From contig CAMKDV010000009.1 of assembly GCA_946411385.1 (NCBI GenBank), positions 62,001 through 126,000 on the forward strand: a stretch of 64,000 bases of DNA. The letters run 5' to 3'. The stretch is from an uncultured Bacteroidales bacterium. Its GTDB lineage: Bacteria; Bacteroidota; Bacteroidia; Bacteroidales; Paludibacteraceae. Below the pieces are notes generated by a model that searched no databases, was not told where the DNA came from, and worked only from the letters and a program-made list of their open reading frames with translations. Of the stretch, positions 3,448 through 57,818 are shown piece after piece (the first letter of the stretch is position 1; the number at the start of each line of letters is the position of its first letter). Position numbers and translations under genes: made by a program.

Positions 3448-3861
3448 ATGGCAACGAAGAAATACACCATCACTTGCACGGAGGAGCAGCTGCGGCTTAT
3501 AGCAAATGCTGTCGAGGACTACAGCCTGTTTATTGCAGGCGATTGCAGGATGTTCCACGCCACATCGCTGGTTAAGCCATCGGAAGCTGTGTGCGAGGTA
3601 AGAAATATACTTGACAGAATGGTCAAGCCGCTCATCACCCCCGATCTACATTTCGGGAGCACATACGACTGGGCGGGCTGCCATTGCCCGGACGAAGCAC
3701 AACGCAAAGCCATAGCGATGTCGTACGGCATCTATCGGCAAATCCTGCATCACTTTGCCTTGCAGCATCCCGAGAACACATGGAACACGTATCTGTCCCC
3801 CACCCTTACATGCCCCGAGCAAGGCGGACTGATACAGATAGAAGAAAGAAAAGAAGAATGA
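3448..3861 (+). CDS. Hypothetical phage protein
   Basis: 137 residues, beginning with a beta/helical segment (KKYTITCTEEQLRLIANAVE) and ending with a charged tail. Cysteines and histidines are scattered (CHC, HHF, LTCPE). It follows the methyltransferase after a 5-bp gap. No domain is recognised; it belongs to the conserved small-protein content of Bacteroidales phages by context only. Confidence 0.7.
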   Translation: MATKKYTITCTEEQLRLIANAVEDYSLFIAGDCRMFHATSLVKPSEAVCEVRNILDRMVKPLITPDLHFGSTYDWAGCHCPDEAQRKAIAMSYGIYRQILHHFALQHPENTWNTYLSPTLTCPEQGGLIQIEERKEE

Positions 3862-3870
3862 AAAATAGCC

Positions 3871-3902
3871 AGCCGAATCCATCACGGCTTTGTGTTGATG
3901 GA
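3871..3902 (+). promoter_or_regulatory. H-type pseudoknot, copy 1
   Basis: Stem 1 is AGCCG (3871-3875) with CGGCT (3885-3889). Stem 2 is TCCATCA (3878-3884) with TGATGGA (3896-3902). Loops are AA and TTGTGT. The second copy at 48455 keeps stem 1 and the TTGTGT loop but has TCCCCA/TGGGGA as stem 2, a compensatory change. It ends 27 bases before the start of the secreted-protein gene. Its function is unknown: a translational control element or a ligand-binding RNA are both possible. Confidence 0.65.
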
Positions 3903-3929
3903 AAGTGTCATCTATAAATTTATAGCGAT

Positions 3930-4292
3930 ATGCGAAAATTTATGATCCTTGCGGTGGGCATCCTGATGTTCCTTGCCGCAGACGCTGCTCCAACCTATGA
4001 CGTAGGACAGCAGCAGACCGACCAAGTGCTGCTCATGCAACAGGAGGACGGTCAGATGATGACGGTGGACTTCGTATATGCGGACTATTCCGTATCTACG
4101 ATTGCGACCGCTGCCGGAACGGAGTACATCACCTTTGAGGCTATGCCGATAGAGGTTCGTACCCAAGTGTTTGACCTTACGATGCCGGTGTTCCGATTAT
4201 GCATCCATAAGGCGAATGCGTTTAAGTCTAATCTTTACACTGGATGGCGTGGAGTGAATAGTAATCCACCGAGTCAATACGATAGGGCTTAA
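3930..4292 (+). CDS. Small secreted protein, copy 1 of 2
   Basis: 120 residues with a clear signal peptide (MRKFMILAVGILMFLAADA, then APTYD); it lacks a lipobox. A near-identical paralogue lies at 48515-48877, with the same length, signal peptide and ending (TGWRGVNSNPPSQYDRA). The last 62 nucleotides plus stop region of both genes are identical, including synonymous positions, whereas the middle has diverged. Both copies are preceded by a pseudoknot and followed by a hairpin with a TTGACC loop. Probable location is the periplasm or outside the cell; function unknown. The Gln-rich mature N-terminus (QQQTDQVLLMQQ) and a Cys near residue 90 are the only other visible landmarks. Confidence 0.85.
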   Translation: MRKFMILAVGILMFLAADAAPTYDVGQQQTDQVLLMQQEDGQMMTVDFVYADYSVSTIATAAGTEYITFEAMPIEVRTQVFDLTMPVFRLCIHKANAFKSNLYTGWRGVNSNPPSQYDRA

Positions 4293-4300
4293 ATCATAGA

Positions 4301-4326
4301 GCTTGCGGGCTTGACCGCCCGCAGGC
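4301..4326 (+). other. 3' hairpin with TTGACC loop, copy 1
   Basis: GCTTGCGGGC (4301-4310) pairs with GCCCGCAGGC (4317-4326) with one G-U pair, closing a TTGACC loop. No T-run follows. The hairpin after the second gene copy has a different stem but the same loop sequence, which suggests the structure and loop are selected. Confidence 0.7.
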
Positions 4327-4372
4327 TTACAAGACAAAACCGACATAATAAACGATATAAAAAATAGAGACT

Positions 4373-4741
4373 ATGCGAGCATGTGAACTGATGGTAGGCG
4401 ATTACGTGAAGCAATGTCATTGTGGCAGGATCATCCGCGTGGCGGAAGTTGTTCCTCCGTTCGTGCGTGACGATACATTGGTAGGGCAGTATCACGAGGA
4501 CACTATTGAGCCGATAACTATCACCGAGGGATTCCTTGAAACAAACGGATTCTCCACGCCGTATATCAACGGTGACCTGTTTGTGTGCAAAGGTGAGAAT
4601 GCCGGTGTGCCATATAGTTTGGAGCACAAGATAAGCACAAAAGCCCTGTTCCTCAATCTCGCGCTCATTCCCGAACCGATTTGTAACGTCCATCAGTTGC
4701 AACATTTCTGTGACATCATTCATAAGGAGATAACGCTATGA
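4373..4741 (+). CDS. LMVGDW/HELQH family protein (plus-strand member)
   Basis: 122 residues. It starts MRACELMVGDYV, has a central PITITEGFLETNGF, and ends VHQLQHFCDIIHKEITL. The same three blocks (LM(V/I)GDW, (I/L)T(P/A)EILExxGF, (V/I)HELQxxxKxCxxxKEIV) occur in four minus-strand genes (32856, 34973, 36124, 36546). This is the most divergent member. Function unknown; all copies are in short overlapping phage operons. Confidence 0.75.
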   Translation: MRACELMVGDYVKQCHCGRIIRVAEVVPPFVRDDTLVGQYHEDTIEPITITEGFLETNGFSTPYINGDLFVCKGENAGVPYSLEHKISTKALFLNLALIPEPICNVHQLQHFCDIIHKEITL

Positions 4742-48454: not shown

Positions 48455-48485
48455 AGCCGAAGTCCCCACGGCTTTGTGTTGGGGA
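48455..48485 (+). promoter_or_regulatory. H-type pseudoknot, copy 2
   Basis: Stem 1 AGCCG (48455-48459) with CGGCT (48469-48473); stem 2 TCCCCA (48463-48468) with TGGGGA (48480-48485); loops AAG and TTGTGT. Stem 2 differs from copy 1 on both strands yet remains paired. Confidence 0.65.
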
Positions 48486-48514
48486 TTAGTTGCAACTAAC
48501 AAATTTAAGTAGCA

Positions 48515-48877
48515 ATGAGAAAATTTCTTGTTCTTGCGGTAGGACTGTTGATGTTCCTTGCCGCAGACGCTGCCCCTACCTATGATGTAGGTCAGCAGCA
48601 GACCGACCAAGTTCTGCTCATGCAGCAGACGGACGGTTCGCAGATGGTTGTGGACTTCGTTTACGCGGACAACACCGTGGTAACGATTGCGACTACGACC
48701 GAAACGGAGTACGTTATCTATCAGGCAGACTTTGCCGAGGTACGCACCCAAGTATTCGACCTTACGCTGCCGGTATTCCGATTATGCAGCCATAGAGCGA
48801 ATGCGTTTAAGTCCAACCTTTACACTGGATGGCGTGGAGTGAATAGTAATCCACCGAGTCAATACGATAGGGCTTAA
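48515..48877 (+). CDS. Small secreted protein, copy 2 of 2
   Basis: 120 residues with the signal peptide MRKFLVLAVGLLMFLAADA. Paralogue of 3930-4292: same length, about three quarters identical, with an identical C-terminal segment. This copy lies between the HU-like gene and an LRR-like protein in the late operon, whereas copy 1 is in the early block, so the two are likely made at different times. Confidence 0.85.
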   Translation: MRKFLVLAVGLLMFLAADAAPTYDVGQQQTDQVLLMQQTDGSQMVVDFVYADNTVVTIATTTETEYVIYQADFAEVRTQVFDLTLPVFRLCSHRANAFKSNLYTGWRGVNSNPPSQYDRA

Positions 48878-48887
48878 ATTACTGGTT

Positions 48888-48909
48888 TAGGGAGTTTGAC
48901 CGCTCCCTA
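48888..48909 (+). other. 3' hairpin with TTGACC loop, copy 2
   Basis: TAGGGAG (48888-48894) pairs with CTCCCTA (48903-48909) around TTTGACCG. The stem sequence is unlike that of copy 1 at 4301, but the TTGACC core of the loop is the same. Confidence 0.7.
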
Positions 48910-48930
48910 TTCCCCAAAACTTGAAACGAT

Positions 48931-52337: not shown

Positions 52338-52431
52338 AATCTTAAACTGCGTACTAAAATTTTTGTCTCGCCCCGGGAATTTTTGATACCCAGCCGCGAA
52401 CAATCTTAAAAATAGAACATTTTAGCACCTT

Positions 52432-52557
52432 ATGAAAACTATACTTTTAACCCTATTATTCTGCTGCGGAGGTCGGCAGCATTGTGACCTATATGCCGAG
52501 AAACCTTGGCGCATCGCTTACCGCCATAACACGTACGTTTATGAACCTGTTTTCTGA
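52432..52557 (+). CDS. Very small exported or membrane peptide
   Basis: 41 residues: a short hydrophobic start (MKTILLTLLFCCGG) and a Tyr/Arg/His-rich tail (IAYRHNTYVYEPVF). No ribosome binding site stands out. The rest of 52338-52625 shows no gene. Could be chance. Confidence 0.35.
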   Translation: MKTILLTLLFCCGGRQHCDLYAEKPWRIAYRHNTYVYEPVF

Positions 52558-52625
52558 TGGAAAAATAAGCCTGTTTGAGCGTGCTTATTTGGCATACACC
52601 GCGTAAGCAACACAAAATAAGTTAC

Positions 52626-52760
52626 ATGCAAACGGAAAATAAGGGAAACACATGTTGCCGATGCGCCTTTTGGAATATGGCGTTTGACAACTCATGCAGC
52701 GAGCGCATACGGCTATACGGCGACTTCAGCAACCAGCCTGCCGACCAACCAGCGTGCTAA
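52626..52760 (+). CDS. Small Cys-rich protein
   Basis: 44 residues from the ATG at 52626 with CCRCAFW near the start and DNSCSER later. It looks like a small zinc knuckle. It is followed by a gene 20 bp downstream with a good AGGAG site. Confidence 0.5.
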   Translation: MQTENKGNTCCRCAFWNMAFDNSCSERIRLYGDFSNQPADQPAC

Positions 52761-52780
52761 CTATTTGACAAGGAGAAAGT

Positions 52781-56404: not shown

Positions 56405-57625
56405 TTAACCTACCGATTTCGGTGGGTTTAACACATAGTCGATTACTTTCCTGTTAGCCTCGGCTGTCTTGATCCATTTGTATTCGACGTAGTGCCGTGT
56501 GTTGATTGTTTTATCCACATGTCCCATGCTTTTGTTGATTACCAGTTCGGGAACGTCTAATTCGCCTGCAATCGTCGCCCATGTTCTGCGTATCTTTGCC
56601 ATAGTGATGTCTATTCCTAATGTCTTACTGATAGCTCGCAGATGCAGCGTTGTGCGGCGTTGGAACGTCTCGTATGATGCACATTCGTCCTTGAAAGAAA
56701 GCAATGTTTCCGTGCCTTTGTATTTGTTAAGGAGTGCCTGTAATTCATCTTCTATCCGCACATGTACCTCGCGCATGTTCACGCGCTGCGTCTTGTGCCG
56801 GACATAAACCACTTCGCCATTCACAGGAGCATCCATCTCGTACAAATCGAGCAGGTTTACGCCGCAAAGATAGAACGACATGAGGGCTATATCGCGTGCG
56901 CGCTCATTATTTAAGGAATATAACCGGGCAGATGCCAGAGCACGCATCTCATCAGCTGTCAGCGTCTCTATGTCTTTCTGCGGAACAGGAGCAATGGAAT
57001 AGTCGAAATACGGATCCTTGTCTCGGGGGATGATATGCCTTTTCTCCGCCTCTTTGTATGCTGCTCTCACGTAGCACTCAATCATGTGCCTGGTGCTCTC
57101 CCCTCTCCGTGTGTCGCGTAGCCAGCGGGCGAACTTTGTCAGGAACGGGTAGTTTACATCATCAAAACGTATGTGCCGCAGTTTCTTCTCTGCGCAATAA
57201 TCTCGCAGCACACCTTCAGCATACGCATAACTCATGCGCGTCTTTGGCGTGTTGCGGCTCTCCCCGTATTCTTTGAAGAAAGCAATAAAATCGGTGCTCT
57301 GCGCTTCATCTTTCTGATAGTTGCCGGCTGCATACTCACGGATTTCTGCGGCGGTCATCTTCCGCAGTTTGTTCTGTTTGTCGAGATCAAGGATAGCATC
57401 GCAGTATTTGCAATAGAGGGAATAGATTGTCTGATTGACTGTCTTGGCGTTGGGAACAGAGCGGTGTATCGCCTGTGCCGGATCACCCGAGAACAAACGA
57501 GGCATCGTGAATATGCCTGTTGAGATGGTTGTGGTACTTGTTCCGTTTGAGATGAGGAACTTGACGGGGAACATCCCTTGCGTGTTCGCCTTTCGCTGGT
57601 CGAGTAATAGTGTTAGTTTTGCCAT
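56405..57625 (-). CDS. int: Tyrosine recombinase (prophage integrase)
   Basis: 406 residues from the ATG at 57625, which matches the family start MAKLTLLLDQRKANTQGMFPVKF; the open frame continues upstream into repeat DNA. Arm/core-binding and SAM-like region to ~210. Catalytic residues: Arg in NNERARDIALMSFYLCG, Lys in VRHKTQR, Arg in KIRRTWATIAG, His in MGHVDKT and the nucleophile Tyr in NTRHYVEY. The usual box II His (HxxR) is replaced, as in many Bacteroidetes relatives. It faces the 3' end of tRNA-Lys 250 bp away, so that gene is the likely attachment site. Confidence 0.9.
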   Translation of the reverse strand: MAKLTLLLDQRKANTQGMFPVKFLISNGTSTTTISTGIFTMPRLFSGDPAQAIHRSVPNAKTVNQTIYSLYCKYCDAILDLDKQNKLRKMTAAEIREYAAGNYQKDEAQSTDFIAFFKEYGESRNTPKTRMSYAYAEGVLRDYCAEKKLRHIRFDDVNYPFLTKFARWLRDTRRGESTRHMIECYVRAAYKEAEKRHIIPRDKDPYFDYSIAPVPQKDIETLTADEMRALASARLYSLNNERARDIALMSFYLCGVNLLDLYEMDAPVNGEVVYVRHKTQRVNMREVHVRIEDELQALLNKYKGTETLLSFKDECASYETFQRRTTLHLRAISKTLGIDITMAKIRRTWATIAGELDVPELVINKSMGHVDKTINTRHYVEYKWIKTAEANRKVIDYVLNPPKSVG

Positions 57626-57637
57626 GATTGTTGTTTG

Positions 57638-57710
57638 TTGCAAAGTTTTTTGCAATTTTTTTGCCCCATTTTGCGGAGTTGCAAAGTTGTTGCAAAGTTG
57701 TTGCAAAGTT
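57638..57710. repeat. 11-bp TTGCAAAGTT(G) repeats upstream of integrase
   Basis: TTGCAAAGTT occurs at 57638-57647 and three more times at 57679, 57690 and 57701, spaced 11 bp, i.e. on one helical face. The array lies between the integrase start and the attachment tRNA, where arm-type integrase or excisionase sites are expected. Confidence 0.8.
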
Positions 57711-57818
57711 TTTGGTTGTTTCAAATAGTGGTTCGTTAGTGGCGAAATGGTGGTATTTTCGCACTTTTTCACCTTTCCCCGACCTATTTTCTTTGCTTAT
57801 TTGCAATCATAACGCAAA

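Follow-up and report, generated by a model that had tools for sequence, protein, structure and literature searches.

The stretch of DNA analysed here (the window, 64 kb) looks like a Bacteroidales prophage. It contains two DNA methylase genes together with genes for an RtcB ligase, a major head protein and a tape-measure protein, and its integrase gene adjoins a tRNA-Lys. The left end of the prophage was not located, and no second copy of the tRNA end was detected in 84 kb of sequence. Within the window lie two copies of a small cassette (W1 and W2; loci from other genomes or contigs carry L numbers), each consisting of an H-type pseudoknot, a short leader, a gene and a hairpin behind the stop codon (Table 1).

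Table 1. Features of the two cassette copies and their surroundings, by position in the window (S1 and S2, knot stems; L1 and L3, knot loops)
Feature	Position	Strand	Remarks
Upstream ORF of copy 1, 137 aa	3448..3861	+	No family found; stop 9 nt before knot
5' H-type pseudoknot, copy 1, 5+7 bp	3871..3902	+	From sequence, geometry and covariation with relatives
S1, copy 1	3871-3875/3885-3889		
L1, copy 1	3876-3877		
S2, copy 1	3878-3884/3896-3902		
L3, copy 1	3890-3895		
Leader from knot to ATG, copy 1, 27 nt	3903..3929	+	Without GGAG or AGGA
Cassette gene, copy 1, 120 aa	3930..4292	+	N-terminal signal-like segment; no known family
62-nt run identical to copy 2	4233..4294	+	57 coding nt, stop codon, 2 nt
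3' hairpin, copy 1, 12 bp	4299..4328	+	Hexaloop TTGACC; begins 6 nt past stop codon
Upstream ORF of copy 2, 191 aa	47873..48448	+	HU-HIG DNA-binding family; stop 6 nt before knot
5' H-type pseudoknot, copy 2, at most 5+8 bp	48455..48487	+	From sequence and covariation with relatives
S1, copy 2	48455-48459/48469-48473		
S2, copy 2	up to 48461-48468/48480-48487		
L3, copy 2	48474-48479		
Leader from knot to ATG, copy 2	48488..48514	+	Without GGAG or AGGA
Cassette gene, copy 2, 120 aa	48515..48877	+	81% identical to copy 1
62-nt run identical to copy 1	48818..48879	+	
3' hairpin, copy 2, 8 bp, 2x2 internal loop, 2 bp	48884..48913	+	Hexaloop TTGACC; begins 6 nt past stop codon
Integrase	56405-57772	minus	Adjoins tRNA-Lys

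The gene is indeed duplicated, as an earlier note on this DNA had proposed, and its two products are each other's only matches in the genome. The description given there of the flanking structures also held. Stem 1 and the TTGTGT loop of the knot are identical in the two copies and stem 2 is swapped on both arms (AGCCG-AA-TCCATCA-CGGCT-TTGTGT-TGATGGA at 3871-3902 in copy 1, AGCCG-AAG-TCCCCA-CGGCT-TTGTGT-TGGGGA at 48455-48485 in copy 2, where stem 2 can be extended to 48487), and the two 3' hairpins have unrelated stems that present the same loop. The note had further read 62 identical nucleotides at the gene ends as coding sequence under selection as RNA; the run is real, but its last five nucleotides are the stop codon and two bases beyond it, and as evidence for RNA selection it is poor. 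At 3 of the 57 coding sites of the run the locus L005 departs from both copies, and over the rest of the gene it differs from W1 at 44 of 303 sites, compared with 65 of 303 for W2 against W1. L005 is thus closer to W1 in the body of the gene yet differs from it in the tail, which fits a recent exchange between W1 and W2; sliding windows likewise look mosaic, with W2 and L005 identical along one 60-nt stretch. Judged from these sequences, recent exchange between the copies would explain the identity more simply than RNA selection.

Protein searches returned 72 homologues of the cassette protein, none with a precomputed Pfam domain, and genomic context could be retrieved for 13 non-duplicate gene loci (W1, W2, L004 to L013 and L150/L154), which are partly dependent in that L008, L011 and L013 are nearly alike, L010 and L012 are close, and so are L006 and L007. 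Dropped as duplicates were the window copies L001 and L002; L003 and L030 (contig of L005); L151, L155 and L160 (contig of L004); L190 and L228 (contigs of L006 and L007); L041, L043, L052, L072, L097 and L123 (contigs of L012, L009, L010, L013, L008 and L011, respectively); and the repeats L163, L174, L176, L184, L358, L360, L376, L378, L380 and L381. Weak partial matches (L149, L152 and L153) were excluded from the gene count. In addition to the window's own genome, the full-length gene occurs in two of the 178 same-genus genomes, and another two gave partial matches (E about 1e-3); the same-genus genome G460 carries the same cassette. In the 393 genomes of the order the single match outside the window's own genome is partial and interrupted by a stop, and tblastn with the cassette protein found no match in 50,697 records of known phages. 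Neighbouring genes vary between groups of loci, and the unit has therefore moved between operons.

The pseudoknot is present at all 13 gene loci, with a stem 1 of 4-6 bp, a loop 1 of 1-3 nt, a stem 2 of 6-8 bp that abuts stem 1 directly, and a loop 3 of 4-6 nt. It also stands in front of two genes whose products we judge to be unrelated to the cassette protein, by eye and by their absence from the homologue list. The first, L169 in genome G530, encodes a 154-residue lipoprotein-like protein, with the knot AGCCG-AA-TGCGTCA-CGGCT-TAATGT-TGGCGCA lying 21 nt ahead of its start; the second, L357, lies on a viral contig and encodes a 260-residue protein with no evident signal peptide, the knot AGCCG-AAA-GCGGTGA-CGGCT-TTGTGT-TCATCGC lying 33 nt ahead of it. 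The two stems together make 12 bp in 12 of the 14 knots from the gene loci and L169, the exceptions being W2 with 13 and L006 with 11, and the L357 knot has 5+7 bp. The earlier suggestion that the structures travel with the gene therefore applies to the knot at every gene locus, but the knot is not confined to that gene. Because it fronts unrelated genes, a gene-specific riboswitch or autoregulation becomes less likely.

Covariation was assessed on 11 common pairs in 12 distinct knot sequences, L169 and L357 included. Paired cells make up 99.2% of the alignment, and all six stem 2 pairs show changes on both sides. Stem 1 (AGCCR/YGGCT) hardly varies, its single double change replacing G-C by A-U in the last pair; the two interleaved helices thus show the compensatory changes expected of an H-type pseudoknot. 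The covariation score was 0.653, compared with 0.179 in shuffles and 0.05-0.17 when the pairing was slid; none of 500 shuffles reached it, while 8 of 500 reached the 7 double-change pairs observed and 2 of 500 the observed pair types, and these counts are not probabilities because the sequences are related. Scanning the window blind to sequence gave no minus-strand site and three distinct plus-strand sites, of which two are the cassettes; the six order-1 Markov sequences scanned at window length gave 0, 0, 0, 1, 3 and 0 sites. When a descriptor without any sequence requirement was applied to the 80 nt upstream of 459 mechanically called ORFs (both strands of 16 sequences), its 13 matches were 12 of the 13 cassette genes and L357; the L006 cassette escaped it because of a 4-bp stem 1, and none of the other 445 ORFs had a knot-like structure in those 80 nt.

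The 3' hairpin was found at 11 of the 13 gene loci, beginning 5-10 nt past the stop codon, and in all 11 its stem comprises 12 bp or, as in W2, 12 layers. The hexaloop follows the pattern YUGRYY (UUGACC, UUGAUC, UUGAUU, CUGAUU, CUGAUC or UUGGUU), and the second base past the stem is C in every case. In an alignment of eight distinct sequences 97.9% of cells are paired and 9 of 12 pairs show double changes, with a covariation score that none of 500 shuffles reached. Across 445 kb (17 sequences, both strands) a YTGRYY loop caps 14 such stems, 11 of which are those of the cassettes, and six other equally degenerate loops cap between 0 and 5. An intrinsic terminator was considered and rejected, there being no run of four T within 8 nt past any of the 11 stems; the hairpin resembles such terminators in its stability and in its position soon past the stop codon, and departs from them in its fixed 12-layer stem and conserved hexaloop as well as in the missing T run. 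Selection on RNA structure, the central claim of the earlier note, is thus well supported in both elements: each covaries strongly among the relatives, and the control on upstream regions of ORFs was clean.

At L006 and L007 a tRNA-Ser called by ARAGORN replaces the hairpin, overlapping the gene end by 10 nt; Rfam places the L007 tRNA above its cut-off and matches that of L006 weakly (19.2 vs 29 bits). Both calls (L006:6384-6467 and L007:6384-6465) have an unusually long segment between the D and T arms (GTGGTGAACTTGATTGGAATCCAC) and no normal anticodon arm, and the TTGATT inside this segment is like the hairpin hexaloop of L009. At L169 the hairpin position holds a sub-threshold match to tRNA-Sec (23.3 vs 47 bits) that ARAGORN did not call, and by eye no YUGRYY hairpin was seen behind the gene at L357.

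Placement of the knot relative to the start codon is nearly fixed. Its 3' end lies 19-33 nt before the AUG in all 15 carriers (the 13 gene loci, L169 and L357). Relative to the upstream stop codon, the knot, counted from the five-base stem 1, begins 9 nt past it in W1, 6 nt in W2 and 1 nt in L005 and L150/L154; it follows immediately in L004, L010 and L012 and overlaps the stop by 1 nt in L009 and by 2 nt in L008, L011 and L013. Greater distances are seen in L006 (43 nt or more), L169 (about 75 nt) and L357 (28 nt), and in L007 a tRNA-Met ends 26 nt before the knot. The -7 promoter consensus of Bacteroides is TAnnTTTG. No such box occurs in any of the 15 carriers from 150 nt upstream of the knot through to the AUG, nor does GGAG or AGGA occur in any of their knot-to-AUG leaders.

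Wider scans with sequence patterns recovered few further candidates. On viral contigs, 7 of 116 matches (115 of 135 stretches) formed stem 2, all on contigs carrying the gene; a further scan gave 2 of 45, again both on gene contigs; among the matches listed in another set (81 in 80 viral stretches), a stem 2 of at least 6 bp was seen only in L253 and L306; and in one more scan one of seven stretches, L357, formed it. The corresponding counts were 5 of 18 matches, or 4 of 6 with a second pattern, in the 178 same-genus genomes and 2 of 9, both in the window, in the 393 genomes of the order. These patterns fix stem 1 together with part of loop 3 or stem 2, so that they would overlook members whose stem 1 differs. 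Relaxing the requirements over all collected loci (6.29 Mb, both strands) gave 30 sites, 13 in carriers and 17 elsewhere, and none of the latter, which include L253 and L306, has an ATG at 19-33 nt. The proteins of the L169 type were also considered as a second carrier family and set aside: their two best fetched relatives, L185 and L186, are without the knot, and no relatives of the L169 protein were found in the viral contigs searched.

The knots of L253 (5533, plus strand) and L306 (5791, reverse complement) have the same geometry, AGCCG-AT-GACCGGA-CGGCT-TT(A/T)TGT-T(C/T)CGGTC, and are followed by a hairpin-like sequence common to both, GGCGGGTTATGCCCGTC, and then by different ORFs; they have no Rfam match and are possibly a related or convergent leader. 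Judging by a back-translation made by hand from protein, without DNA, the N-terminal extensions of two homologues (P0026 and P0029) would resemble knot sequence read in frame. The longest contig for P0028, a homologue of the cassette protein, and that for P0083, a homologue of the L169 protein, are each 12,649 bases long, and the two may lie on one contig.

Rfam 15 returned only two tRNAs for the whole window, with no family at the knot or hairpin, and just two tRNAs, both in L007, for seven carrier or side loci; at E values up to 10, positions 3800-4400 of the window gave one weak match to a frameshift element at 4009-4057, away from the structures. No published description of the element was found in the part of the literature covered, with Rfam as the RNA collection compared. 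On this coverage the element itself appears new as a structured RNA, whereas its kind, the leader pseudoknot, is already known, and its absence from Rfam makes it of interest whatever its function.

The cassette protein has a signal-like N-terminus, a conserved VFRLC and a C-terminal NPPSQYDRA, with lowest entropy at residues 81-90 and 111-120 and a conserved PP near the C-terminus, and it has no match in Pfam, PHROGs, NCBIfam, PDB or PADLOC. AlphaFold modelled the signal helix only (pLDDT 46), a low confidence that may reflect disorder or a shallow alignment. The invariant RL of the FRLC motif (window 4191-4202 and 48776-48787) is encoded as CGA TTA at all 13 loci, although both are minority choices among their synonyms (about 14% and 11%) in the ORFs examined and neighbouring conserved residues vary in codon; this would suggest constraint at the nucleotide level. 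Structure throughout the gene was considered and rejected, RNAalifold windows on the codon alignment giving few pairs and z between -5.2 and +1.5. Nor do we claim a possible coding hairpin near the gene end (GNGGR/YCCNC), in which third-position changes keep the pairing at several loci but which is broken in L005.

Among the roles that the earlier note listed (riboswitch, translational control knot, packaging or processing signal), translational control seems the likeliest; nothing that was observed favours packaging. We tentatively propose, as a reading somewhat short of probable, that the cassette is a prophage gene whose covarying 5' H-type knot is a portable ribosome-docking leader and whose covarying 12-layer 3' hairpin seals the cistron. 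In this scheme the gene would be co-transcribed with the gene upstream, the knot would meet the upstream edge of the initiating 30S subunit and might bind 30S or protein S1, ribosomes that make no use of Shine-Dalgarno pairing could thereby translate the internal cistron, and the hairpin, or the tRNA in its place, would set or protect the 3' end. To our knowledge, little is known of cis elements that help internal starts in the operons and phage transcripts of Bacteroidia. Ribosomes of this class are described as not recognising Shine-Dalgarno sequences (PMC9976891). A role in initiation is favoured by that property of the host class together with the nearly constant distance between knot and AUG, the occurrence of the knot before three unrelated genes and the lack of a promoter box.

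There is precedent in the tisB mRNA of E. coli, where a leader pseudoknot is described as needed for binding of 30S and S1 and restoring stem 2 as restoring function (PMC7708055). The present knot is like that of tisB in being a pseudoknot in an mRNA leader, but the tisB standby site is said to act about 100 nt upstream of a sequestered ribosome-binding site (PMC7708055), whereas here the distance to the AUG is much shorter and no sequestering structure was found. Several facts count against docking: ribosomes terminating at the upstream stop would disrupt a knot that starts within 9 nt of it or overlaps it, as is the case at 11 of the 13 gene loci; the two unrelated carriers, L169 and L357, are single examples; the near-invariant stem 1 exceeds the sequence conservation that a purely structural dock needs; and the 3' hairpin is left unexplained. 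If the docking reading is true, the knot would offer a compact expression part for work in Bacteroides. Its broadest form, that a transferable 12-bp knot is the structural substitute of Bacteroidales phages for the Shine-Dalgarno sequence, docking 30S before any cistron, with one family adding a 12-bp hairpin replaceable by a tRNA, is more doubtful.

A processing site or a repressor-bound gate would fit the same facts of sequence. The main rival to docking, by virtue of the 12-bp helix at both ends and of the tRNA that can replace the hairpin, is that the two structures bracket a single-gene mRNA, their helices of about 12 bp being recognised by, or blocking, host RNases or tRNA-processing enzymes so that an end-protected message is excised from the operon transcript. 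This is on balance unlikely, although the regularity of the helices (12 of 14 knots, 11 of 11 hairpins), the tRNA-Ser of L006 and L007 and the tRNA-Met before the L007 knot, the absence of a T run behind any hairpin and the varying contexts all favour it; processing would not need a near-fixed distance from knot to AUG, the L357 knot lacks the hairpin behind its gene, Rfam supports the L006 tRNA weakly, and no enzyme was identified. Processing and docking could both be true. Distinctly less probable is a gate in which a phage or host protein bound to the knot shuts off translation, as gp32 does at gene 32 of T4. There, and in RB69, the phage leader is described as a folded pseudoknot of about 28 nt followed by less structured leader, with the 5' part of the T4 operator overlapping the upstream reading frame (PMC535899); the likeness is one of layout alone, the leader here being presumed less structured. 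A nearly invariant stem 1 would suit a recognised site. In gene 32, however, repression is described as nucleated by the gene's own single-stranded-DNA-binding product (PMC535899), whereas the proteins encoded behind the present knots are unrelated and the cassette product bears a signal-like segment, which makes simple autoregulation unlikely, and no candidate binder was found.

The protein itself might be the regulator, stalling its own ribosome near the C-terminus while the 3' hairpin couples the stall to the next gene. SecM, ApdA and ApdP are described as likewise short, with an export-type segment at the N-terminus, a conserved C-terminus and a hairpin behind it, and arrest peptides are reported outside the control of Sec and YidC (PMC10987492); the signal-like N-terminus, the conserved segments with their PP and the model without a fold are in keeping with such a role. 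We nevertheless regard it as improbable: no RAPP/RAGP-like motif occurs at the C-termini of the 72 homologues or in their alignment, the downstream genes vary and none was identified as sec or yidC, the knot fronts other genes too, and the low-confidence model possibly reflects just a shallow alignment. Very improbable is the view that both structures are terminal hairpins for a recombinase acting on single-stranded DNA rather than RNA signals. The homology of W1 and W2 begins at the knot and stops within the hairpin, and contexts vary, as a mobile unit would predict, but the cassette contains no recombinase, the distance from knot to AUG is kept before unrelated genes also, and the standard pairs include G-U. 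The sole indel comparison, in which L359 was tried as an empty site against L154, shows a difference of about 1 kb that includes an acetyltransferase gene, not the cassette alone. Small pseudoknots in leaders, such as preQ1-I, can be riboswitches, and the present knot shares with preQ1-I its small H-type fold and leader position. In the present knot, however, the 5' strand of stem 2 runs straight into the 3' strand of stem 1, its loop letters vary between groups, Rfam has no match at it, and the genes behind it have no evident common pathway, so binding of a small molecule is the least credible reading of all.

Other features of these loci were seen in passing. The gap at 52338-52780 of the window, behind a membrane-protein ORF, contains a small lipoprotein-like ORF (about 52431-52557), of which L154 seems to hold a remnant, and an inverted repeat, AAATAAGC...GCTTATTT, that is common to the window and L359. 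We also considered the cassette as the target of a diversity-generating retroelement and rejected this, the sole reverse transcriptase match of the window's genome being on another contig, C15. The cassette does have reverse transcriptase genes nearby at L154:6306-7791 and L010:3060-4394 (the L010 match is below the model cut-off), and in L154 an Asn-rich frame just ahead of the gene invites comparison with the template repeats of diversity-generating retroelements.
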